Shown here: positions 3,647-16,530 of the stretch, piece after piece | Position numbering within the stretch: the stretch's first letter is position 1 | How the letters are laid out: each line of letters starts with the position of its first letter | NCBI RefSeq assembly: GCF_010550675.1 | Contig: NZ_JAAGOA010000002.1 | Span: 310,001 to 374,000, forward strand | From: Phytoactinopolyspora halotolerans | GTDB lineage: Bacteria > Actinomycetota > Actinomycetes > Jiangellales > Jiangellaceae | DNA length: 64,000 nt | Direction: 5' to 3' | Notes under the pieces: model-generated | Databases searched by the model: none | The model's input: the letters and a program-made list of their open reading frames with translations, nothing else | Told to the model about the DNA's origin: nothing | Translations under genes and position numbers: made by a program

Positions 3647-6600
3647 TCACAAGGAAGGTGCGGATCGCTGAGATTGTGGCCGATGATTGGACTTCGACGC
3701 AGGCAGATCTAGCTGGGCACCGAGTCGAGCGGCCCGGACGATGTGTTCGACGCGTCGGCGGTCCGCACGTAGCGCCCAGCTCCCACAGTCCGGATCTACC
3801 TCGCCCATGGCACCGCGACCGGTGATGCCATGGCGTTCACGGTACGCCGCGACTGTGATGACGTTGCGAAGCCACTGTTTGCGCTGTTGTGATGTTTGGG
3901 GCGCATGCCCAAGCTCGCGGAGCCAAAGTGCTTGGTCGGTAATGGCCTGCTGGGCGAGGGCGGCAGCACGCTGTTCGATGAGCGTTGCTCGTTCGTCGAG
4001 CGCTCGGCGAATCTCGGGATCGTCAACGTGGACGGCGGCGGGTATGAGCCCGGCGATCATCCGCCGTGACGTCCGGCTGCGGCCGGTGGCAGTGGCTTGA
4101 TCGGTGAGCTGTTCCAGCCGGTGACCGAGCAACCCTAGCGGATCGTCGCTGTTCTGAAGCTCGGCGCGGGAGGCGAGCCGTGGCAGCAGGGCTGCCGGGT
4201 CGAGGCCATGGGCATCGGCTCGTCGCATCGCCGCGACGACAGTCGCGTACGACGGCGAGGTCGCCATGTCAGTGTCCGCCGGGCACGTCGTGTTAAGGAT
4301 GCCGGCCCAGTGGTGAGTGTCGGCCTCGCGGGCCAGGGTGTCGTATTCGGCTGCGAGTCGGGCAATGCTGGTGGCCTGATCTTGCCCAGCCGTGATGGTC
4401 TCGTGGGCCGAGGACTCAGCACCCGAGCGGCGTATGACCGCAGCGAGCACATCGCGCACGGACGGAACGTGCCCGTCGGCGACCTCATCCTCATCGCCGG
4501 TGATGACGTAGGCGGTGTTGGCGTGCCGGCCGCGGCTCATGCCCACGTAGAGAGTCTCGCGGGTCGTGGTCTCGGCGACGAGGGTGTGGGCGGTGTCGAC
4601 GGTGGCGCCTTGCGCGCGATGGGCGGTGCATGCGTACGCGAGTTCGACATGCTCGGCTACGTACGCGGCGGGGAGAGTGACTGGCTGCCCACCGGTGGCG
4701 CGGGTGACCGTGAGCGATCCGTCGGCGTGGCGCGTTCGGACCGTCCACTGGTCGCCGTTCTTCACCCAGGAGCGCGGGCCGGTCGCCAGCTTGCGGTTGT
4801 TGAGGCGGGTCACGATGCGGTCCCCGCGCCCGGCCGTCGTGCCGTCGTGCAAGGGGACACCATCGAGGGCGACTTGCCCGGCGGCGACACGATCGGCGCG
4901 GGCGCGTTCGTTCAGATCGCGCACGGTGGCCGCGTCCGGCGCGATGAGCAGCGACGCGAGCCCTGCGGCGGTGTCGGACTGCCACGCCAGGAAGGCGTCA
5001 TCCAGGGCTTGGTGATGGTCGCCGGAACGGATGCGGGCGTGCCCAAGGTAGGTGTCGATGACGTCGATCTCGCCACGGCGCAACCGACGACTGGCTTCGC
5101 GCTCCCAGGCGTGAGTGAACCGTCGAACCCCGGTCAGCTCAGCTACCTGACCGCCGTAGTGCCGGACCAACAGGCCGAAGGCCCCACCGGCGTCGACGGC
5201 GGACAGCTGCGCAGGATCACCGACCAGCAGCAGCTTCGCACCCGCCTGTTCGGACTGGGCACGCAGCTCATCCAGTGCGAGCGTGGAGGCCAGAGACGCC
5301 TCATCGACGATGACCAGTTGGCCTGGGCGAAATTGCCACCGGCTGGACTCAGCCTGTAGGTCGGCAAGTGCGGCATCCCACCGCCGAGTCGACTCGCCGG
5401 CCGCGAGAGCCGCGTCGCGATGCCGACGGAGCTGACCGGCGCGGGTCATGCGTGCCTGTGCGCCTGGGCCGGTGGATTCGTGCAGCCACTTGGCCGTGTT
5501 CTCGGTGGTAATGCCGAGACTGTCCCCGAGTACCTCGGCCGCCGCAGCCGATGGCGCCAGCCCCACCGCACTTCCCGCCCCATACTGCGCCTCCCAAGCT
5601 CGGCGGAGGACGGCCAGGGTGGTGGTCTTTCCGCTCCCGGCCGGGCCGACCAGCACATCCACCATCCGTCCACTTGTCGCGATCTGCCGGACTGCGGCCA
5701 CCTGGTCCAGGGTGAGGGTTTGGCCGTTCGTCTGCGACGTGGCGCCCGTGCGTACCAGCGCTTCGTCGACGGTGGGTGCAGTGCGCGTCTCGAACGTGGC
5801 GAGGAGCCGGTCCTCGGCAGCCAGGATGGCCGCACTGGTGTAGACGTCGGCGTGAGAACGACGAAACGCCGACGTCCCATCCGCACGACGGAACACGCCC
5901 GGCGTGCTCGCAAGCTCTGGCGGGGTGAGGCAGATGCTCTGCTCGGCCACCCGCCGAGTAACCGCCGTGATCAGCTCATCACGCTGGTCGCCGCTGGCGA
6001 GCCGGTATGGCATGGACGCACGGGCAGCAGCAGCTCGGACATTCCAGCTCCGCCAGGTCGAGCGCTCACTGCTCAACTCATGCAGCGTTGCGGCAGCGAC
6101 CTGCTCGACCACGCTCGCCCACTCACCCTCACTTACCAGACGAGACGGCGTCCGGCTCGCGTCCACGATGAGCGTGCGCGCCCAACGGTCCGGATCGGTG
6201 CCGAGCTGCCGCGCAGCGCGTGCGCGCCACTCGGCGCGCAAACTCACGAGCGGACGGAACTGCTTCGCGGGCCGGGTGGCGTAGGTGGCCTGCTGCCGCA
6301 ACCGCAGCACCGTGGCGTCATCCGGGTCACGGCCATGCGACGCCCGATACGCCGCGACCAGGTCATCCTTGACCGACTCGATCCCGTGCGCGCGCCGAGA
6401 GAACGAAGCGATCAGCTCATCCGGCACCCCAGCGATCTCCCACGACTGGTTCTTCGCCTTCACCGGGTTGCCGCGCTGCTCCCAGCCGACTCCGAGTCGG
6501 TTGGTGACGTTGTCGGCCAGCAGCGTGTCATACAGCTCACTCATCGCCACCGCCGCCGGGAACAACGACCCACGCGAATCCAGCGTCCGCCACGCCCCGT

Positions 6601-7318
6601 CCGGACCCTGAACGCGGTTGGCAATCACCACATGGGTATGCAGCTGCGGATCACCTGCCCGGGAGTCGTAGTGATCGAACGCGGCCGCGATCACGCCACG
6701 CGTCTCAACTTGCGCGACCCCGTTCGTACCGATGCGAGTGCGGGCGACATCCCGCTCGATCACCCTCACCACCTCGGCCAAAGCGTCATGGTGGGCCTGC
6801 TCGACGACCGTGCGCACGTCGTCGGGTGCGAGCGCCCACAGCGCGCTCACCGACTTCGGCGGGGAGAAAACGCAGTCAAACCCGGACACCGGCCGCCGGG
6901 TCGGGCGGTCTCGCTCCTGCGCCTCGATTGTCGCGACACGGGCTGCGCGCTCATCGCCGGTCAGCATGGCGGGCAGAGCGCGGATCCGCGCGTCCGCGCG
7001 CTCACGCCACGACTTCGGTTGCGCGAACCGCCGACCTAATGCGACACCGGTCACCGGATCTGTGCCGTGCTTAAACAGCCGCTCCATCTGTGTCTCGCTC
7101 ACCACCGACCCGGCCGTGAGGCCCTGACTGTCGGCAAGACCAGTGAGGCCCGTGCCGAGCCACCTGCCCGGTGGATTCCCCGACTCCGCGTAATACCGCG
7201 ACATCGACGACGCCGAGGCGGCCATGCCCTCACCATCCACTACGTGGCGCAGTAGGTAGGCGTAGCCGTCACCGGCGTGCAGTTCCTTCACCGACATCAT
7301 GCCCGACGCCCACGTCAC
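3647..7318 (-). CDS. MobF/TraA-type conjugative relaxase-helicase
   Basis: This large 1223-aa protein would nick oriT and unwind DNA for transfer. The N-terminal TrwC-type relaxase domain has HAGDGYAYLLRHV, the segment FDCVFSPPKSVSALW, and the metal-binding histidines in DPQLHTHVVIANR. The central helicase part has Walker A VGPAGSGKTTTL and Walker B LVIVDEASLAS, followed by RecD-like motifs ending in AYACTAHRAQGATVD. The start is a GTG whose GTGA overlaps the stop of the upstream gene. This is the only conjugation gene I recognise in the element. Confidence 0.95.
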   Translation of the reverse strand: MTWASGMMSVKELHAGDGYAYLLRHVVDGEGMAASASSMSRYYAESGNPPGRWLGTGLTGLADSQGLTAGSVVSETQMERLFKHGTDPVTGVALGRRFAQPKSWRERADARIRALPAMLTGDERAARVATIEAQERDRPTRRPVSGFDCVFSPPKSVSALWALAPDDVRTVVEQAHHDALAEVVRVIERDVARTRIGTNGVAQVETRGVIAAAFDHYDSRAGDPQLHTHVVIANRVQGPDGAWRTLDSRGSLFPAAVAMSELYDTLLADNVTNRLGVGWEQRGNPVKAKNQSWEIAGVPDELIASFSRRAHGIESVKDDLVAAYRASHGRDPDDATVLRLRQQATYATRPAKQFRPLVSLRAEWRARAARQLGTDPDRWARTLIVDASRTPSRLVSEGEWASVVEQVAAATLHELSSERSTWRSWNVRAAAARASMPYRLASGDQRDELITAVTRRVAEQSICLTPPELASTPGVFRRADGTSAFRRSHADVYTSAAILAAEDRLLATFETRTAPTVDEALVRTGATSQTNGQTLTLDQVAAVRQIATSGRMVDVLVGPAGSGKTTTLAVLRRAWEAQYGAGSAVGLAPSAAAAEVLGDSLGITTENTAKWLHESTGPGAQARMTRAGQLRRHRDAALAAGESTRRWDAALADLQAESSRWQFRPGQLVIVDEASLASTLALDELRAQSEQAGAKLLLVGDPAQLSAVDAGGAFGLLVRHYGGQVAELTGVRRFTHAWEREASRRLRRGEIDVIDTYLGHARIRSGDHHQALDDAFLAWQSDTAAGLASLLIAPDAATVRDLNERARADRVAAGQVALDGVPLHDGTTAGRGDRIVTRLNNRKLATGPRSWVKNGDQWTVRTRHADGSLTVTRATGGQPVTLPAAYVAEHVELAYACTAHRAQGATVDTAHTLVAETTTRETLYVGMSRGRHANTAYVITGDEDEVADGHVPSVRDVLAAVIRRSGAESSAHETITAGQDQATSIARLAAEYDTLAREADTHHWAGILNTTCPADTDMATSPSYATVVAAMRRADAHGLDPAALLPRLASRAELQNSDDPLGLLGHRLEQLTDQATATGRSRTSRRMIAGLIPAAVHVDDPEIRRALDERATLIEQRAAALAQQAITDQALWLRELGHAPQTSQQRKQWLRNVITVAAYRERHGITGRGAMGEVDPDCGSWALRADRRRVEHIVRAARLGAQLDLPASKSNHRPQSQRSAPSL

Positions 7319-8432: not shown

Positions 8433-9815
8433 GTGGACCAGGAAGCACAACTGATTTCCGTGGCCTTGGTGCGGTACGCCGACTCTTGCCCGCCGACCTT
8501 GCACCCGGACTGCCCGTACGTCGAAGAGTCGGAAGGGAACCGAACCTGCCGTTCACAGTGCCGAGACGAGGTTGTGCGCCTGTCGAAGCCCGGACACACG
8601 GGCGGGACCATCCTCGCCGGTCCGCTATTCGACGCCCGACAGTACCTGTTGAGTGAATCGACGGCGGTGCCGGACGCGAACTGGCACACGTCGTCGCTAC
8701 TGCTACGACTTCGATCGGCTCTTCTGAGTCCGCCCCGAAGTCACCGTGGTGAGTATTTCCTCGTTCGTGAGATCGATGCCACCAACGCGCTCGCATATCT
8801 CGGTCAGCGGGGATTCGACTCGGAGTGGATCGTGCGGTTCGGGTTGGCGCAGGAGCTACCAACCATGCTGGCCCTGTGGGTAATCGGCTGGTACTCCGAG
8901 CTTGGCCAGACAGAGCAGCGCCCGCAGTGGGTTGCCCCGTGGCTCGATGCCTTCGAGAATCGCGTAGGTGAGTGCGACAGCACTGACATCGGCCAGTTGC
9001 TGGCGGCTGCTCACAGGAGTGGTTTCATCGAATGGGTCAGGCGCTGGCTACAGCAGGCGCCTCTGCACGACGTCGTGGCGTGGACGCCCATGGATGACTC
9101 TACCGACGGCACCGACCCTGATGATGGTCAGGCGCGCTGGATGATCGATCGCTTCACCGAAACGTACCTTCGGGACTGGGTCGAGACCTCGCTTCACCAC
9201 GAGTACCACTACTTACGTGGCAGGCAGGATCCGCCTACCACCATCGCAGAGATGATGCGCCGACAACTTACAAAGAGCGATGTCGATCGCGAGCTTGCCC
9301 GGAGGTCTGTCGAAGGCTCGCGCTCTCGGCTCGCTGAGGTCAGGAGCCAGGCCATTGGCTTGCTTAGTGAGGGTCGTCGCCGTGAAGCTGCCGCCCTCTT
9401 CGACGCCGCTCGCATACTTGAACCGCAGGACGCGGAGGCGCACAACAACTACGGATTCTGTTTGACGCCTGACGACCCCGAGACCGCCCTCCGTGCACTT
9501 GTCCGTGCAGAGGAACTCGGCGTTGCGGCCAAGGCTCTGAACCTCCTCAATCAGTCAATCGCATTGCGCTTACTTGGCAGACCGGCGGACGCATTGGCGG
9601 CGGCCGAGCGCGCACTCGATCAGACAGGCGGGCGCAGTGAGCCAGCCTGGCTCTGGGACAATCTGATCGCGTCCGACGAACCGACGATCGAGAACGTTGA
9701 CCTTGTGACTTACATCCGTCGCCTGGGCCGAGACCTCGCTGAAGAGCTCGGCGAGGAGGAGCAAATGGATCTGTGGCGGCAACGACTGTCGGTACTTGAT
9801 GGCCCTACTGATTGA
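8433..9815 (+). CDS. TPR-like protein with N-terminal Cys cluster, function unknown
   Basis: The 460-aa protein starts at a GTG with GGGAG upstream. Residues 19-43 hold four cysteines and a histidine (C19, H24, C27, C39, C43), which could bind zinc. The centre is rich in Trp and acidic residues. Residues of about 305-420 look like TPR helices, for example AAALFDAARILEPQDAEAHNNYGF. I recognise no enzyme motif. It ends by overlapping the convergent GNAT toxin by 11 bp. Its place between mobility genes and a CBASS makes a defence or regulatory role possible, but nothing in the protein proves it. Confidence 0.7.
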   Translation: MDQEAQLISVALVRYADSCPPTLHPDCPYVEESEGNRTCRSQCRDEVVRLSKPGHTGGTILAGPLFDARQYLLSESTAVPDANWHTSSLLLRLRSALLSPPRSHRGEYFLVREIDATNALAYLGQRGFDSEWIVRFGLAQELPTMLALWVIGWYSELGQTEQRPQWVAPWLDAFENRVGECDSTDIGQLLAAAHRSGFIEWVRRWLQQAPLHDVVAWTPMDDSTDGTDPDDGQARWMIDRFTETYLRDWVETSLHHEYHYLRGRQDPPTTIAEMMRRQLTKSDVDRELARRSVEGSRSRLAEVRSQAIGLLSEGRRREAAALFDAARILEPQDAEAHNNYGFCLTPDDPETALRALVRAEELGVAAKALNLLNQSIALRLLGRPADALAAAERALDQTGGRSEPAWLWDNLIASDEPTIENVDLVTYIRRLGRDLAEELGEEEQMDLWRQRLSVLDGPTD

Positions 9816-10317
9816 CTGACTTGTGCAAGTCCTTCAGCAGAAGGAACAACTGCAAGGGATCGATTGGCGATGGCTCGAACTCAGCCTGGGCCAGGTAGAA
9901 GTCCCGTGCCTCGTCGTCCTTGGCGTGGATGAGTAGCGCTTTGACGCCGATCTCGTCCGCTGCGTTCGAGACGCGCACAAGTGCGTCACGCAGGAGTCCA
10001 CGGCCAAGCTTCCGGCCTTGATGATCTTCGTGCACGGCCAGGCGGGCGAGAACGATGACCGGGATTGGGTGCCGCGGCACGCCCTTCGTCATCCTGGCGG
10101 GCGCGTCCTGATGGTCCACGCCACCCGTAGCCAGCGAGTAGAAGCCAACGACCTCGTCTGAGTCGTCGACCGTTGTCACGAACGTGGTGGTCATGCCGGC
10201 ATGCTGGTTGATCAACGAGTAGCGCTTGAGCCAGTCGTCCAGGGGTTGACGCCCGCACCGGAACCCAGACACTTCATGGTCGGGGCTCAGCCGGGCAGGT
10301 TCCCGATACGACGTCAC
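9805..10317 (-). CDS. GNAT acetyltransferase toxin (TacT-like)
   Basis: The 170-aa protein has the GNAT fold signature with the acetyl-CoA loop DHQGRKLGRGL and a downstream Tyr in ARDFYLAQAEF, typical of the general acid. The N-terminal CGRQPLDDWLKRY is the hallmark of TacT/AtaT-type toxins, which acetylate the amino group of charged tRNAs and stop translation. It starts at GTG inside the GTGA overlap with the upstream RHH antitoxin. A downstream inhibitory partner other than that antitoxin is not seen. Confidence 0.9.
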   Translation of the reverse strand: MTSYREPARLSPDHEVSGFRCGRQPLDDWLKRYSLINQHAGMTTTFVTTVDDSDEVVGFYSLATGGVDHQDAPARMTKGVPRHPIPVIVLARLAVHEDHQGRKLGRGLLRDALVRVSNAADEIGVKALLIHAKDDEARDFYLAQAEFEPSPIDPLQLFLLLKDLHKSVNQ

Positions 10318-10616
10318 GTCTGCGGCTCGAATGGCGAGTCTTCGTTGAGCAGCTCCTGGAGCCTTGGCTTGAACACAGCCGGTCGCTCAAGGGCAGCTTC
10401 GAACGCTTGCCAAGCGTCATCGCTGACAGCGAAGTATCGGCGATCTGCGAGCACATGCTCGGCGGTCGCAGTCGCGCTGTCTAGAACGAACTCGCTCATG
10501 CTCTTGTCTACTGCCTGCGCTGCCTGACGGATCAGCTTGTCCTGCTTAGCCGAGGTTCGGATGTTGAGCCGTGAGTCGCGTACGGGACGGGCAGCTGCGG
10601 CTTCCTCATTAGGCAT
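10314..10616 (-). CDS. RHH antitoxin, DUF1778 (TacA-like)
   Basis: The 100-aa protein has an N-terminal ribbon-helix-helix (RLNIRTSAKQDKLIRQAA) typical of DUF1778. The C-terminal segment, WQAFEAALERPAVFKPRLQ, is the part that normally wraps the GNAT toxin. The ribosome site AAGGAG precedes the ATG. As in other TacAT systems it should bind dyads in its own promoter. The dyad arms at 10648-10657 and 10691-10700 lie in the right place and reach into the divergent CBASS promoter. Confidence 0.9.
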   Translation of the reverse strand: MPNEEAAAARPVRDSRLNIRTSAKQDKLIRQAAQAVDKSMSEFVLDSATATAEHVLADRRYFAVSDDAWQAFEAALERPAVFKPRLQELLNEDSPFEPQT

Positions 10617-10645
10617 GAAGGACTCCTTCCACAGAATGTGAACCC

Positions 10646-10700
10646 AATGTACTCACAGACCCTTGCGTTAAGCAACCCGTGTCTGTACATTGTGAGTACA
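10646..10700. promoter_or_regulatory. Interlocked divergent promoters and dyad of TacAT and CBASS
   Basis: On the + strand TTGCGT (10663-10668) is followed after 17 bp by TACATT (10686-10691), pointing at the CBASS operon. On the - strand TTGCTT (10675-10670) is followed after 18 bp by TACATT (10651-10646), pointing at the antitoxin. TGTACTCACA (10648-10657) and TGTGAGTACA (10691-10700) are exact inverted copies, and each covers one -10 element. An RHH antitoxin bound to both arms would shut both promoters. The boxes are read by eye; repression of CBASS is inference. Confidence 0.6.
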
Positions 10701-10750
10701 CGCGACGTAGTTCTGTCGACCACGTCCAGCTCCCCAAGCCTAGGAGAACC

Positions 10751-10840
10751 ATGCGAGACCCGAAGAAATCCGGCCACCCCGGAACCAAGGCCCAGCACAC
10801 CTCTACCTCCCGGCCCGAGGCGCACCATGAACGTCTCTGA
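10751..10840 (+). CDS. 29-residue small ORF leading the CBASS operon
   Basis: The strong ribosome site TAGGAG lies 5 nt before this ATG. It encodes a basic, His-rich peptide that begins MRDPKKSGHPGTKAQ and ends EAHHERL. Its stop lies 11 nt downstream of the ATG of the ATPase gene, so the two overlap and translation could be coupled. It may be a leader ORF, a real peptide, or a peptide partner for the HORMA protein. No family is recognised. Confidence 0.45.
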   Translation: MRDPKKSGHPGTKAQHTSTSRPEAHHERL

Positions 10841-11723
10841 GTGCATCGTGCGCAACGACCTCGTCCCCGACGACCGCTACAGCGGCTTCTGGGACTCGAT
10901 CGTCGTTGACCCGACCATCAAGCAGCAGCTGGTCCGCTCGGTGGCCCTCGGGCTCAACCTGCGCACCAAGCTCCCGTTCCACGCCACCGCGCTGCACGGG
11001 CTTGCGCTCCTGACCGGCCCGCCCGGGACCGGCAAGACCACACTGGCGCGCGGCTCGGCGCACAAGGTCGCCAGTCTGATGCCCGACTCCAAGGCCCGGT
11101 TCATCGAGGTCAACCCCCACGGCCTGATGAGCGCGGAGCACGGACAGAGCCAGCAGCGGGTCTCCAAGCTCCTCGCCGAGCACATCCCCGACCTCGCCCT
11201 CGACGGACTCCCGACGATCGTGCTCCTCGACGAGGTCGAGTCCATGGCCGTTGCTCGTGGCGCCGCGTCCCTGCAGGCGAACCCGGCCGACGTGCATCGG
11301 GCGACCGACGCCGTGCTCACCGCCCTCGACGACGTGGCGATCAAGTCGCCCCACATCTTCACCGTGGCGACCAGCAACTTCATCGAGGCGCTCGACGGTG
11401 CCTTCGTGTCCCGCGCCGACCTTGTCGTCGAGGTGCCCCTGCCCGGCAAGGAGGCCGTGAACACGATCCTCGCCTCCACCCTGACGGACTTCGCCGAGGC
11501 CTTCCCGGCCCTGGAGAAGGTCGCACAGGACCCCCGTCTTGCCGAGGTCGCCGACCTTCTCGTCGGCCAGGACGGACGCGGGCTGCGCAAGCTCGTCTCC
11601 GCCGCGATGCTCACGCGGAACGAGACGACCATCGACCCGAACGAGCTGACCATTGGGGACCTCCTGGTCGCCGCAGGGGCACTGGCATCGCGGTCGACCA
11701 CGCCGGGTAAGGAGCGCAGCTGA
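10827..11723 (+). CDS. TRIP13/Pch2-like AAA+ ATPase of CBASS
   Basis: The 298-aa protein is a single AAA+ module. Walker A is GPPGTGKT (64-71), Walker B is IVLLDEVES (131-139), sensor 1 is ATSN (181-184), and SRAD (195-198) matches the Pch2 arginine-finger region. In type III CBASS, Trip13 disassembles the HORMA-CD-NTase complex and so keeps the alarm off. I chose the ATG at 10827 (GAGG upstream); an upstream in-frame extension looks non-coding. It is the first large gene of a tight operon; the next gene starts 1 nt after its stop. Confidence 0.92.
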   Translation: MNVSECIVRNDLVPDDRYSGFWDSIVVDPTIKQQLVRSVALGLNLRTKLPFHATALHGLALLTGPPGTGKTTLARGSAHKVASLMPDSKARFIEVNPHGLMSAEHGQSQQRVSKLLAEHIPDLALDGLPTIVLLDEVESMAVARGAASLQANPADVHRATDAVLTALDDVAIKSPHIFTVATSNFIEALDGAFVSRADLVVEVPLPGKEAVNTILASTLTDFAEAFPALEKVAQDPRLAEVADLLVGQDGRGLRKLVSAAMLTRNETTIDPNELTIGDLLVAAGALASRSTTPGKERS

Positions 11724-11724
11724 C

Positions 11725-12207
11725 ATGGAGCGCACCCGCAAGTTCGCCGCATCGCCGGTCAGGCCGGCGAACGCGACCTGGACGCAGATCAAGGACCTGC
11801 TCGCCGAGTCGCTCGAGCGCAGTGCGGCGGTGCCGGACAGCACCGTCGCCACCGCGCTTGGCCCTCTCGACGGTCTCGTGCCCTCTCTCATCGCCAGCGG
11901 CTACCTGGCAACCGAGCCGCTGGTCGTCGTCGCCGGGGACCTGCGGCTCAACCTGTATGCCGTCCGCGGTGACGCCGCGTTCGACGTCGAGGAGAACCTC
12001 GGCCCGGTCCCCGGAGCGGCCAGCAGCTCCGCGAACTGGCGGATGTATGTGCCGTCACCGGTCCACCTGCGCGACACAGTCGCTGAGGCGTGCACCGGAC
12101 AGGACCACCTGATCTCCGGCAAGCCGCCCGCCGCCACAGAGGCCGCCGATTCCGGGAGCGCCAGCCGGATCTACGCCATCGACCCCGCCGCGCTGCGGCA
12201 GATCTGA
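11725..12207 (+). CDS. Unrecognised CBASS-operon protein
   Basis: The 160-aa protein starts 1 nt after the ATPase stop and ends 7 nt before the HORMA gene. It has a helical N-terminal part (TWTQIKDLLAESLERSAAV), a central strand-rich part (EPLVVVAGDLRLNLYAVRG) and a tail ending ASRIYAIDPAALRQI. No catalytic or membrane motif is visible and I cannot assign a family. Its fixed place between the TRIP13 and HORMA genes suggests a direct role in CBASS control, for example as a second HORMA-like or peptide-presenting partner. That is a guess from context. Confidence 0.75.
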   Translation: MERTRKFAASPVRPANATWTQIKDLLAESLERSAAVPDSTVATALGPLDGLVPSLIASGYLATEPLVVVAGDLRLNLYAVRGDAAFDVEENLGPVPGAASSSANWRMYVPSPVHLRDTVAEACTGQDHLISGKPPAATEAADSGSASRIYAIDPAALRQI

Positions 12208-12214
12208 GCCGACC

Positions 12215-12724
12215 ATGACGAGCACCTCCGTCGGCGTCCACGCCACGACCAGGACGCACACGGCCAACCACCTCTCCGACGTCATCATGTCCTCCATCGG
12301 TGACATCCTCACCACCCTGGGGATCAGCACCAGCCGCTTCTACAAGGACTGGAGCCAGGACTTCACCGCCATCAGCAACTGGATCGAGGAAGGCACCCTG
12401 AAGACGGTCGCGCTGGAATGCCACCGCCCCGACGGGACCGTCAAGCCGGTCTTCGACTTCGACGTCACCTACGCGCCCGGCGGGGTCGGCGACCGCAAGT
12501 TCACCGCGGACAACGCCTCGCTCCTGAAGTACATGGCCAAGCTCGAGCGGGTCCCCGCTGGCACGACCTACAGGCTGGTGTGCTCTTTCAACTCGACCTG
12601 GCACTCCGATCAGGTCGGCTGGAGTCCGGGCAGCAAGGCTTCGACGAGCGGTCTGCGTATCCGCACCGTCGGCACGCTCGCCGGCGGGCCTGACGCCACC
12701 GCTACCACCCGCATCCACTCCTGA
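12215..12724 (+). CDS. Bacterial HORMA-domain protein of CBASS
   Basis: The 169-aa protein fits the bacterial HORMA (bacHORMA_2-like) pattern: an N-terminal THTANHLSDVIMSSIGDILT helix, then GTLKTVALECH and a strand pair around VFDFDVTY, ending in a flexible tail. In type III CBASS, HORMA proteins close around a peptide motif and bind and activate the CD-NTase. Neighbouring TRIP13-like ATPase and CD-NTase genes support this strongly. Family assignment is by pattern recognition, not search. Confidence 0.85.
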   Translation: MTSTSVGVHATTRTHTANHLSDVIMSSIGDILTTLGISTSRFYKDWSQDFTAISNWIEEGTLKTVALECHRPDGTVKPVFDFDVTYAPGGVGDRKFTADNASLLKYMAKLERVPAGTTYRLVCSFNSTWHSDQVGWSPGSKASTSGLRIRTVGTLAGGPDATATTRIHS

Positions 12725-12737
12725 GACGAGAAGCACT

Positions 12738-13586
12738 ATGACCATTGTCGACGACGCGTTCTCCGGGCTGAAGTCCAATCTCGAGATCACCTCGGCAGAG
12801 CAGGCACTCGCCCAGAGCCGACACATCCTCATCCGCGACCACGTGAAGACCCGGTGGACCCTGACCGCCGACTTCATCACCGGAAGCTACGACCGCCACA
12901 CCAAGACCAAGAAGCTCAAGGACGTCGACCTGTTCGTCGTCATCGACCCCGACGGCGACCAGGGACACTTGGCCAAGGGCACCGGGACGGGCGCGGTCGA
13001 CGCGCTTGCGGAGATCCTCGCCACCCGGTGGAGCGTCACCACAGACGACACCGTGGTCACCGTCTCCTACGCCGATGAAGACGTCGCCTCCTACGAGATC
13101 GCGCCGGCGTTCGCCACCGAGAACGGCTACAAGATCCCCAACGGCACCGGGTGGATGGAGACCAACCCCAACAAGCATGCCGAGATGGTCACCGCCAAGA
13201 ACAAGGCCTGCGGCGGCAAGTTCGTCCCGCTGGTCAAGATGATCAAGGGCATGAACCGCGAGGCCGGTGAACCCATCAGCCCGTCGTTCCTCATCGAGGT
13301 CATGGCCCTTGAGCTCGTCGAAGCCCCGCTGGGCAGGTACCAGGACGAGGTCCGCTTTTTCCTGGCTGCGGCCGCCGACGCCGCGCTCCAAGACTGGCCC
13401 GACCCGGCCCGGCTGGGGCCCGACGTCAACGGCGACGTCTCGTCTTGGGAGCGGACCGCGTACCAGAACGCCTTCCGGTCCTGGCTCGCCGTCGCGGAGG
13501 AGGCCATCTTGCTGGAGAACGAGGGCCGGGAGCGCGCCGCGGTCAGCACGTGGAAGACCCTGTTCGGCTCCCGGATGCCCGGCTGA
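12738..13586 (+). CDS. CD-NTase (cGAS/DncV-like nucleotidyltransferase)
   Basis: The 282-aa enzyme would make a cyclic oligonucleotide messenger upon phage infection. The catalytic GS (49-50) and DVD (62-64) are in GSYDRHTKTKKLKDVDLFVV. The third acidic position, normally Asp in a DIVPA-like strand, reads as E120 in SYEIAPAF. The later GGKFVPLVKMIKGMN helix is typical of SMODS proteins. The gene lies 13 nt after the HORMA stop and overlaps the effector start (TGATG). The product, whether di- or trinucleotide, cannot be read from sequence. Confidence 0.93.
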   Translation: MTIVDDAFSGLKSNLEITSAEQALAQSRHILIRDHVKTRWTLTADFITGSYDRHTKTKKLKDVDLFVVIDPDGDQGHLAKGTGTGAVDALAEILATRWSVTTDDTVVTVSYADEDVASYEIAPAFATENGYKIPNGTGWMETNPNKHAEMVTAKNKACGGKFVPLVKMIKGMNREAGEPISPSFLIEVMALELVEAPLGRYQDEVRFFLAAAADAALQDWPDPARLGPDVNGDVSSWERTAYQNAFRSWLAVAEEAILLENEGRERAAVSTWKTLFGSRMPG

Positions 13587-14491
13587 TGGCCAGTGTCACC
13601 GAGCACGAGCCTGGGCCGATCAACTTGCGTCAGGAAGACCCGCACGCCCAGCGGCTCCTCGCTGGCCAGTCCCGCCTGTACAGCGACGCCAAGCACATCC
13701 GGAGGTTCCGGTTGCCGGTCACCTTCGGCCTCGCGGCTCTCAGCGTCCTGGCCGGCTTGGCGTTCCCGGACGCTCGCCCCGCCCTGGGCCTGGCTGGCGC
13801 CCTGGTCAGCCTGGGATGGTCCGCCCTGGCGTTCGGCCCGGAGCGGCGCAAGCGGATGACGGCGGCCGCAACCCAGGAGGAGTTCGACTGCTACGTCTTC
13901 GACCTGCCGTGGAAGTCGAGCGCCGTCGACCATCCGTCGGCCACGACAATCGCCGAGGCCGCCGGCCGCTACAAGGGGAACCGGCTCGCCGGCTGGTACC
14001 CCAGGACCGGACCACTTCCGCGGCCGTTGGACGTCCTGGTGTGCCAGCGTAGCAACCTGGGCTGGGGCACCGCCGCACACCGCCAGTACGCAACGTTCCT
14101 CACCGGAGTCCTGGTCGCGCTCTTCCTCATGGTCGGCATCGTGATCTGGCTAGTTGACGACGGCATCTTCATCGTCCTCCCACTCGCTGCGCCTGCGAAG
14201 GATCTCTTCGAGCTGGGCCGCGAACACCGGACCAGCGCGGAGTCGAAAGACAACGCCGAGGCGAAGGCTCGCAAGGTCTGGGACCAGGCGCTCGCGGACC
14301 CGTCGGCTGTGACGCTCTCAGACTGCCGCGATATCCAGGACCTGATCCTGACCACGCGCCGCAACAACGCCAGCGTCCCAGACTGGTTCGACAACCGCCG
14401 CCGTAACACTTACGAGACGAGCATGCGGCAGAGCACCGAGCACTACATCGAACAAGCCATCGCTGCCGGCCGGGCCTGGACGACTGAGTAG
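13586..14491 (+). CDS. S-4TM pore-forming CBASS effector
   Basis: The 301-aa membrane protein has four predicted membrane segments in two pairs: about 42-60 and 64-83, then 170-190 and 192-206. The N-terminal INLRQEDPHAQRLLAGQ followed by LYSDAKHIRRF is typical of the S-4TM family, the predicted pore effectors linked to SMODS nucleotidyltransferases. Binding of the cyclic nucleotide should open or assemble it and collapse the membrane (abortive infection). The ATG overlaps the CD-NTase stop as TGATG, so effector output is translationally tied to the enzyme. Confidence 0.9.
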   Translation: MASVTEHEPGPINLRQEDPHAQRLLAGQSRLYSDAKHIRRFRLPVTFGLAALSVLAGLAFPDARPALGLAGALVSLGWSALAFGPERRKRMTAAATQEEFDCYVFDLPWKSSAVDHPSATTIAEAAGRYKGNRLAGWYPRTGPLPRPLDVLVCQRSNLGWGTAAHRQYATFLTGVLVALFLMVGIVIWLVDDGIFIVLPLAAPAKDLFELGREHRTSAESKDNAEAKARKVWDQALADPSAVTLSDCRDIQDLILTTRRNNASVPDWFDNRRRNTYETSMRQSTEHYIEQAIAAGRAWTTE

Positions 14492-14582
14492 GACTCGACA
14501 GTTCGAGGGCACTGAGAGCTCGAAGCGTCCGATTCTGCTGAACTGAGTGCGTCATACCGGCTCCCGCGAATGCCCATATGGC

Positions 14583-15659
14583 TCAGGTTCTGCCCGTGTT
14601 GCGGTATCGCTGGATGTCGGTGTTGAGACGGTTCAGCATTGTTTCTGCCGTGGCGGTCGGATCGGTCGTGGTTCGTTCTGTGCCGGGGTGTTCGCTGGAT
14701 GCGTGGTCGGGTACGTGACGGTGGAGCCATCGTCGCTCGATGCCGGCGTCGGGGTGCAACGTGGCATAGGAGAAGGTCGACTGGCTTCCGCCCGCGGCAG
14801 GTCGTTGTTGCCGGATCGCCAGGACTTGGTCGAGGTCGAGACGCGGCCGGGGGTCATGGTCGGGGTGCCAGAAGATGTGGCGGTGGGCGGTCTCCATCAC
14901 GGTTTCGTTGAGGGGGATGGTGATGGGTGCACCGTTCGGGTCGATCTTGTGGTCGATGGTCAGGTCGCGGGCTTGGGGGCGCTGGATCGGTATGAGGAGG
15001 TATCGGTGGGGATCGAGTGGCAGGTAGATGTCCCAGTACGACGCGGCGCGTAGTTGATCTGAATCGTCCTGTGCATTCATGATTTGGACCGGTGCGTCAC
15101 TGGTGAGGAGGCATGGCGTGGAGTAGCCGACGCCCCATGCGCGCCTGTAGATGGTCGCCGCTAGCGGTGCGACGTTCTCGGCTATGTACCGGATGTGGTG
15201 GTTGGCGCTGGCGATTGATCGTGGCGGATCGAGGGGGCTGCCGTCGAGGTTCCATAGGCGCTCGCGTTGCCGGGGTGTCCGCAGTATCTGGGCTGCGATC
15301 CACCAGGACATCGCTAGGCGATGGGCTGGTCTCGGTGGCCAGGGCCGAGGCAACGCGTCGGCAGCCGGTGAGCCTTCGTCTTTGTCGAGGAGCGCTCGAA
15401 AGGCGGTCGTCGCTTCGCTCTCGATGATGCTGAGGAACTTCTCCGTGTGATGGTGCTCGACACCTTCAGGCGTCGTGCCCCAGTAGAAGCCCTTCTCAGA
15501 TCCGATGTTGCGAGTGCTTGCGGGGAACTCACTCCGAGGGTTGTCGGCGGGTGCTGCGATGAGTTGGTGGCCGCCTCGACCAGAACGCGGGACGGCCCAC
15601 CGCCGCAGGTACATCTGCGGCACGAAGTGGTCGTTGGTTGCCCGCGCTTTGTCGCCCAT
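14583..15659 (-). CDS. DUF4238 family protein
   Basis: The 358-aa protein opens with NDHFVPQMYLRRWA, the defining start of DUF4238. No membrane segment is seen. A conserved-looking HHTEKFLSIIESEATTAFR follows, and YLPLDPHRYLLIPI lies towards the C-terminus. The molecular function of the family is not known to me. I chose the ATG at 15659, preceded by AGAGGAAA; an open frame continues upstream to 15716. It is convergent with the CBASS effector gene and probably independently expressed. DUF4238 genes are frequent in mobile and defence regions. Confidence 0.85.
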   Translation of the reverse strand: MGDKARATNDHFVPQMYLRRWAVPRSGRGGHQLIAAPADNPRSEFPASTRNIGSEKGFYWGTTPEGVEHHHTEKFLSIIESEATTAFRALLDKDEGSPAADALPRPWPPRPAHRLAMSWWIAAQILRTPRQRERLWNLDGSPLDPPRSIASANHHIRYIAENVAPLAATIYRRAWGVGYSTPCLLTSDAPVQIMNAQDDSDQLRAASYWDIYLPLDPHRYLLIPIQRPQARDLTIDHKIDPNGAPITIPLNETVMETAHRHIFWHPDHDPRPRLDLDQVLAIRQQRPAAGGSQSTFSYATLHPDAGIERRWLHRHVPDHASSEHPGTERTTTDPTATAETMLNRLNTDIQRYRNTGRT

Positions 15660-16011
15660 GATGTTTCCTCTCGGATACCGACCCGAGTCAATGAGTATGG
15701 TGGACGGCGGTGACATGCGTCTGAGGTCAAAGGCGAGTTATTCACATGCCAAGACGGCCGGATTGAGAACGGCGGCGTCATGATTCGCCATTTACGACCC
15801 CGTCTCTACGCATCGAACGCCCTGCCCCTGGACGCGCCGCCCATCCTGCCCCGCATGCTTTGATGGACGGTAACCGGGCAGGCCAAAGGCGCCTGCTAGG
15901 GAAATGCGGCGAGAGGACGAGCTGCCTTGTGAGGCGGATTTGATGACAGGTCCGTTGTGCGGCCTGATGGGGCTCCCTATTGGGTGAGGACACCAAGGAG
16001 GGAGATCGCTC
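15660..16011. other. Intergenic region between DUF4238 and excisionase genes
   Basis: About 350 bp separate divergent genes and I see no coding sequence. The end next to the excisionase carries a strong ribosome site (AAGGAGGG, 15994-16001). Promoters for both genes should lie here. No long repeat was noticed. Confidence 0.5.
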
Positions 16012-16197
16012 GTGAACGAGTACATGACTACGGCTGAGGTGGCGGAGCTATTGCGGGTCCCCGCAGAGACGGTGCGCTACTGGCGCTATATCGGCAAGGG
16101 GCCCAAGAGCTTCCGGCTTGGCGGCCGCCGCGTGTTGTACGCCAGAGAGGACGTTGAAGCGTTCGTCGCGGCGGCACGGGCCGAGGGCGCAGCCTAG
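16012..16197 (+). CDS. Excisionase-like HTH protein (Xis/MerR type)
   Basis: This 61-aa protein is a single winged HTH: MTTAEVAELLRVPAETVRYW, then GKGPKSFRLGGRRVLYAREDVEAFV, the pattern of HTH_17/excisionase proteins. Such proteins bend DNA and bias the integrase towards excision. It starts at GTG after AAGGAGGG. It sits 175 bp from the second attachment copy, at the opposite end of the element from the integrase. Confidence 0.88.
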   Translation: MNEYMTTAEVAELLRVPAETVRYWRYIGKGPKSFRLGGRRVLYAREDVEAFVAAARAEGAA

Positions 16198-16372
16198 GTA
16201 GGCCCGTGCTGACTCGGCGCGGGCGCGACAGGTGTTCGAAGATCAAGTTCGACCGCTTTACGACCACAAAACTACTCGACATGTCCAACGGGCGCCAGCG
16301 GCGATCAACTGCATCGTGCCAGGTCACCCAGCCAAGCCAACGGCTACCAACGCGCACTTCGTGCACCTGATC

Positions 16373-16406
16373 GAAGGTTGGGGGTTCGAATCCCTCGGGG
16401 CGCGCC
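16373..16406 (+). other. Attachment site copy, distal end of element
   Basis: This is an exact 34-bp copy of 370-403 without the 5' half of the tRNA, so no functional tRNA is encoded here. It is followed by a hairpin related to the one after the intact tRNA. It marks the chromosome-element junction. Confidence 0.9.
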
Positions 16407-16413
16407 CATCGAC

Positions 16414-16444
16414 GGTGGCTGGTCAGAGCGATCTGACCAGCCGC
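16414..16444 (+). terminator. Hairpin after distal attachment site (chromosomal copy)
   Basis: A 13-bp stem (415-427 with 432-444 of this kilobase) forms around a GCGA loop. It is related in sequence to the hairpin at 408-445. It was presumably the terminator of tRNA-Arg before insertion. Confidence 0.65.
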
Positions 16445-16530
16445 TTTGTCGTTGTGCGGCCCCACTTTGCGACCGTGTTCACGTCTCCGTGATGCACGAC
16501 ATTGTGATGTGATGGCGAACGGACAGACAG

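Follow-up and report, generated by a model that had tools for sequence, protein, structure and literature searches.

Does the operator of a toxin–antitoxin module also govern the antiphage operon that lies back to back with it? This question is raised by a 64,000-nucleotide stretch of the Phytoactinopolyspora halotolerans genome (contig NZ_JAAGOA010000002.1, positions 310,001 to 374,000; hereafter the window, numbered from its first letter). Here tacA, encoding a ribbon-helix-helix antitoxin, and cap6, the first gene of a type III cyclic oligonucleotide-based antiphage signaling system (CBASS), diverge across 210 bp of intergenic DNA (10617–10826). CBASS repression by TacA is the best reading of this sequence. 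Stated in full, it is fairly probable that TacA, alone or with its toxin TacT, would bind two operator copies, L and R, and thereby autoregulate tacAT and repress the divergent CBASS operon.

A preliminary description of this DNA had placed the two arms of an exact dyad on the −10 boxes of two divergent promoters. The dyad is real: the 10-bp inverted pair is present (TGTACTCACA at 10648–10657, TGTGAGTACA at 10691–10700), among 1000 dinucleotide shuffles a perfect arm of this length turns up in 1 to 5, according to the stretch and loop limit chosen, and the pair occurs at a spacing of 20–40 nt only once in the 7.3-Mb genome (in viral contigs, two stretches carry the exact pair). Promoter-like boxes, scored with weights set by hand, give a predicted CBASS promoter TTGCGT-17-TACATT on the + strand (−35 at 10663–10668, −10 at 10686–10691) and a predicted tacA promoter TTGCTT-18-TACATT on the − strand (−35 at 10675–10670, −10 at 10651–10646), with the two −35 boxes one base apart. 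Both pairs tie at a score of 13.0, each the best on its own strand in 10561–10826, and four placements on the two strands of the window reach that score, these two included. The placement of the arms on the −10 boxes was correct only in part: they overlap the boxes, but the 10-bp arms cover just four and one of the six bases, and it is another pair, CAATGTAC (10645–10652) and GTACATTG (10685–10692), that covers both boxes fully.

The family operator was derived from other genomes, using the DNA upstream of tacA genes that were identified through similarity to TacA; none of it came from the window. Fifty-two such regions were thinned to 43 for similarity, with the own-genome loci L002 and L044 excluded, together with L003, L004, L048 and L049 as copies of L071, L072, L017 and L018, and L045, L063, L064 and L065, which contig ends cut short; L043 lay outside the set. 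For several tacA genes a simple rule decided the start codon, and some of these starts, such as those of L010 and L055, may be misassigned. The pattern GTAC-N7-GTAC is exact in 10 of the 43 upstreams and present with at most one mismatch in 19, whereas 20 shuffled sets average 2.1 and never exceed 5. At the same tolerance, GTAC-N11-GTAC was found in 18 upstreams and GTACGTAC in 19, with shuffle means for the three GTAC spacings of 1.6 to 2.4 (20 shuffled sets each). These spacings give a 19-bp palindrome, GTACGTAC-NNN-GTACGTAC. A symmetric weight matrix was then built from the 18 upstreams with a template score of at least 12. Across 350,319 bases of other loci, it returned 39 positions of at least 13 bits (some loci overlap, so these are not independent sites), 38 of them no more than 40 nt from the 5′ end of a tacA match positioned by tblastn; the sole match away from tacA (L068:3362, 14.7 bits) lies 1.5 kb off. 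Matches linked to tacA outside the training set scored 25.7 (L043), 21.1 (L064), 20.1 (L009) and 17.6 bits (L075). A second TacA subfamily, with an RxAVR strand, has another palindrome, approximately GTGTGCC-N5-GGCACAC as read by eye, before tacA in L005, L008, L011, L018, L020, L023 and L027. In several of these loci it ends in a −10-like CACAAT 6–7 nt before the start codon, which suggests leaderless, autoregulated tacA transcripts.

Applied to the window, the matrix singles out two sites. Operator R (10681–10699, + strand; GTCT-GTAC-ATT-GTGA-GTAC, toward CBASS) ranks first among 63,982 positions with 19.6 bits, and operator L (10638–10656, − strand; GTGA-GTAC-ATT-GGGT-TCAC, toward tacA) ranks second with 13.9 bits; the third-best score is 9.9 bits. 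TACATT occupies the same register in both copies, read outward, and their centers are 43 bp apart, or about four helical turns. The family motif fits two separate 19-bp palindromes better than a single 53-bp dyad, and the latter was rejected for this reason as the unit of binding. We assign L and R to the TacA-family operators with good confidence, and TacA binding at both is likely. The better-scoring copy is R, which lies on the predicted CBASS −10 and away from the usual tacA position. The earlier proposal that the antitoxin operator also sits on the CBASS promoter is strengthened in these respects, namely the fit to the family motif, the presence of two copies and the location of the better one.

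It is very improbable that some other regulator binds the site with TacA as a bystander. Only tacA upstreams went into the motif, the exact R sequence occurs once in the genome (its degenerate pattern matches R itself and one further site with two mismatches), and TacA is the sole PF08681 match there at E 0.01.

Several observations weigh against CBASS control by TacA. The divergent promoters with adjacent −35 boxes claimed earlier stand as a layout under hand-set weights, but a strict E. coli-type scan of 8500–16500 finds no promoter because the −35 boxes are weak, sharing three of six bases with TTGACA. Nor is the motif found throughout the TacA family: 25 of the 43 upstreams, among them those of the subfamily with the GTGTGCC palindrome, fall below the template score of 12. 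The operator consensus itself includes TAnnnT, so that TACATT in R may be operator rather than −10 box. R may also serve a distal tacA promoter, a second promoter-like pair on the − strand (TCGACA-19-CACAAT, score 10.6 with the same weights) that overlaps it. The last two points would suit an alternative in which L and R form the operator of tacA only, R being auxiliary or ancestral and the CBASS promoter lying outside TacA control; several type II toxin–antitoxin promoters are reported to carry two palindromic operators side by side (PMC10135005), and the −10-like character of the motif itself is compatible with this. We nevertheless regard this alternative as rather unlikely, given the relatives. 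L, which stands 40 nt before tacA and within the family range, already fills the usual operator position, and R, at 83 nt, is beyond the 11 to 72 nt seen in the 18 relatives with picked start codons. Searched from 250 nt upstream to 80 nt downstream, these 18 show no additional, separate site of 10 bits or more upstream. The registers that overlap the main site 11 bp away score 15.0, 15.9 and 10.8 bits in L054, L052 and L015, and the only separate second site at this threshold, in L051, lies 26 bp downstream. No further + strand TAnnnT exists between the genes: TACATT at 10686 is the only one between tacA and cap6, which favors the CBASS reading of R, short of proof.

Gene neighborhoods bear on a further alternative, in which a mobile cassette with TacAT came to lie next to CBASS by chance and R is bound without a selected effect, or acts only sterically. 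TacAT and CBASS do not adjoin in the other loci examined. Their arrangement was seen once, which also counts against the regulatory link. The same holds for genome G728: its TacA relatives are encoded on contigs C190 and C252, and its type III CBASS lies on C332, where a gene with helix-turn-helix (HTH) and M78 peptidase domains stands beside cap6; this separation onto different short contigs speaks against a general partnership. A conserved TacAT–CBASS partnership was rejected as a candidate, since a tblastn search at E 1e-3 of 15 further cap6 locus files, which represent 11 distinct loci, finds neither TacA nor TacT (L035–L040, six of the cap6 loci, have only 1.5-kb flanks, with Cap6 41–45% identical). 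Four other genomes of the genus have neither a TacA match at E 1e-10 nor a Cap6 match at E 1e-40, and within the order TacA was found in its own genome only, one of 22. A genome-contig scan with TacA alone covered 216 stretches with 0 relatives, and in viral contigs A2 and cap6 gave 111 and 4 stretches, likewise with 0 relatives. Mere chance does not readily account for the operator on the other promoter, which is in register with the first and scores better, and in L068 and L074 tacA also has divergent neighbors, yet only one operator is found there (the L068 TacA is the closest in the genome-contig scan, with 64% identity over 84 residues). We consider a chance neighborhood improbable, more so than a purely tacA-directed operator pair.

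The 11 distinct cap6 loci without tacA have no comparable upstream site. Their best upstream scores are 10.9 bits in L078, over the start codon, 7.1 in L042 (a Rhodococcus opacus plasmid), 5.3 in L083, 4.8 in L079, 4.5 in L037 and 4.4 in L084, the other five reaching at most 2.3. In two of them, the gene divergent from cap6 encodes a single protein that combines an HTH with an M78 peptidase domain (L083:99–1310 and L079:7421–8560), perhaps CapH and CapP functions fused, to judge from the domains. In the window, tacAT occupies this controller slot of CBASS. The Rhodococcus opacus plasmid, pLPS8, carries HTH_17 and PIN_3 proteins (L042:2382–3369) about 0.6 kb upstream of its related CBASS operon; this toxin–antitoxin-like pair runs in the same direction as CBASS, with one hypothetical gene between.

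How might repression of CBASS by TacA work? TacA, most likely as a TacA–TacT complex, would bind L and R. At L, over the tacA −10, it would exert the usual autoregulation; at R, over the −10 of the type III CBASS operon, it would repress that operon. The tacA and CBASS promoters should also compete for polymerase, because their −35 boxes are one base apart. Release would come when free TacA falls, through proteolysis or blocked translation, or when the toxin exceeds the antitoxin. In the related AtaR–AtaT system, tight DNA binding is reported for a 2:1 complex, which a surplus of toxin frees from the DNA (PMC10135005); by analogy, loss of TacA or an excess of TacT would free both promoters. 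Since R fits the motif better than L, tacAT would be released first and CBASS only at a deeper loss of TacA. The preliminary description had both de-repressed together; the prediction here, if matrix score tracks affinity (bits are not affinities), is that the CBASS site binds more strongly and is released last. The TacA level would then act as a threshold gating CBASS expression. That infection is the trigger, we only infer. As a tentative extension, which we think doubtful in its full form, free TacA would serve as a sensor: the weaker operator would let the antitoxin be refilled first, R would hold CBASS until TacA is deeply depleted, and a phage-imposed stop of translation or TacA degradation would then call up a second abortive system.

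Taken by themselves, both the TacAT module and the type III CBASS are typical of their families. The antitoxin gene tacA (10314–10616, − strand; 100 aa) matches PF08681 (TacA1) with 79.7 bits at a cut-off of 21, and in the PDB its product matches DUF1778 chains weakly, KacA 5zgn among them. Directly downstream, and sharing 4 nt of reading frame with it, lies tacT (9805–10317, − strand), which encodes a GNAT toxin of 170 aa with a GTG start (PF13508/PF00583). By phmmer against solved GNAT toxin chains, TacT reaches E 6e-35 to 7f36 and 2e-34 to 5fvj, and E 1e-11 to KacT 5zgn; it is 56% identical to the TacT adjoining tacA of L068. The module thus combines a PF08681 ribbon-helix-helix antitoxin, a downstream GNAT toxin and a predicted family operator before tacA. 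Profile matches of the two proteins at E 0.01 are confined to TacA1 (with a sub-threshold NikA-like match) and GNAT models, and the same scan found no WYL, HTH plus M78 peptidase or STAS/kinase domains in either.

On the + strand, the CBASS operon starts with cap6 (10827–11723; TRIP13-like AAA+ ATPase, PDLC00915, E 7e-116) and continues with two HORMA proteins (11725–12207, PDLC00885, E 3e-30; 12215–12724, PF18173, E 5e-20 and PDLC00883, E 3e-65), a CD-NTase cyclase (12738–13586; NF041117, 258 bits at a cut-off of 200, with a GSY...DVDLFVV motif) and an S-4TM membrane effector (13586–14491; PF18159, E 1e-57). Cyclase, HORMA, TRIP13 and effector genes are therefore found within one cluster, as in type III CBASS. 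A basic small open reading frame of 29 codons (MRDPKKSGHPGTKAQHTSTSRPEAHHERL; 10751–10840, + strand), preceded by a strong Shine–Dalgarno sequence AGGAGA, overlaps the cap6 start out of frame. It is possibly a leader peptide or a means of translational coupling; no counterpart was seen by eye upstream of cap6 in three relatives.

Some neighboring genes deserve mention. A gene for a 460-aa TPR-like protein (8433–9815, + strand) is convergent with tacT. Among 11 tacAT loci searched, two, L068 (33%) and L073 (28%), have a relative convergent with tacT; the gene possibly belongs to this type of TacAT as a third component, or simply travels with it. A DUF4238 protein gene (14583–15716, − strand) lies directly downstream of the CBASS effector gene and convergent with it. 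A 1223-aa protein (3647–7318, − strand), MobF/TraA relaxase-like by eye, suggests that the locus lies within a conjugative element.

If TacA does control CBASS, two abortive systems would be linked in one switch, and an antitoxin acting as controller would make CBASS responsive to arrested translation or to proteolysis of the antitoxin. The controllers CapW, CapH with CapP, and CapK with CapS are all described as answering DNA damage (PMC13373217). Within a literature search that left most subscription journals and all preprints outside its scope, no antitoxin-controlled CBASS was recognizable from the title or the start of the abstract among the matches listed, and no work naming both “TacA” and “CBASS” as whole words was found.

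By position, the proposed wiring resembles that of a divergent immune-operon controller such as CapW or CapH with CapP, without their domains; observed here are a divergent gene and a predicted operator on the predicted CBASS −10. CapW, described as a winged helix-turn-helix WYL protein answering single-stranded DNA (PMC9122588, PMC13373217), is reported to lie upstream of CBASS on the opposite strand, with type III CBASS among its hosts (PMC9122588). The divergent position before CBASS is thus shared with CapW/BrxR, the WYL controller of CBASS, whereas TacA, an antitoxin of the ribbon-helix-helix type, gives no WYL match and has a toxin as its partner. CapH with CapP, of helix-turn-helix and peptidase make-up, and CapK with CapS are reported as two-protein controllers adjoining immune operons, in which a protease or kinase activated by single-stranded DNA frees the promoter of its repressor (PMC13373217). 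It is a divergent HTH-M78 protein that fills the slot of tacAT in the two cap6 relatives; here, in contrast to these controllers, the predicted cause of release is a loss of antitoxin or a surplus of toxin, and TacA is partnered by a protein that is a toxin in its own right. From the side of the GNAT–ribbon-helix-helix modules TacAT, AtaRT and KacAT, gene order, domains, overlapping frames and the distance of the operator before tacA are all alike, and the difference is the second, better-scoring predicted operator on a divergent defense operon. The SavRS complex of Staphylococcus aureus is reported to bind and repress other promoters, those of hla and efb (PMC5913840); the targets named there are virulence genes and not an adjacent defense operon. 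In CreTA, as described, a toxin–antitoxin module is wired to CRISPR-Cas and the defense complex represses the toxin. The arrangement proposed here is the reverse, in that an antitoxin would repress the defense operon.
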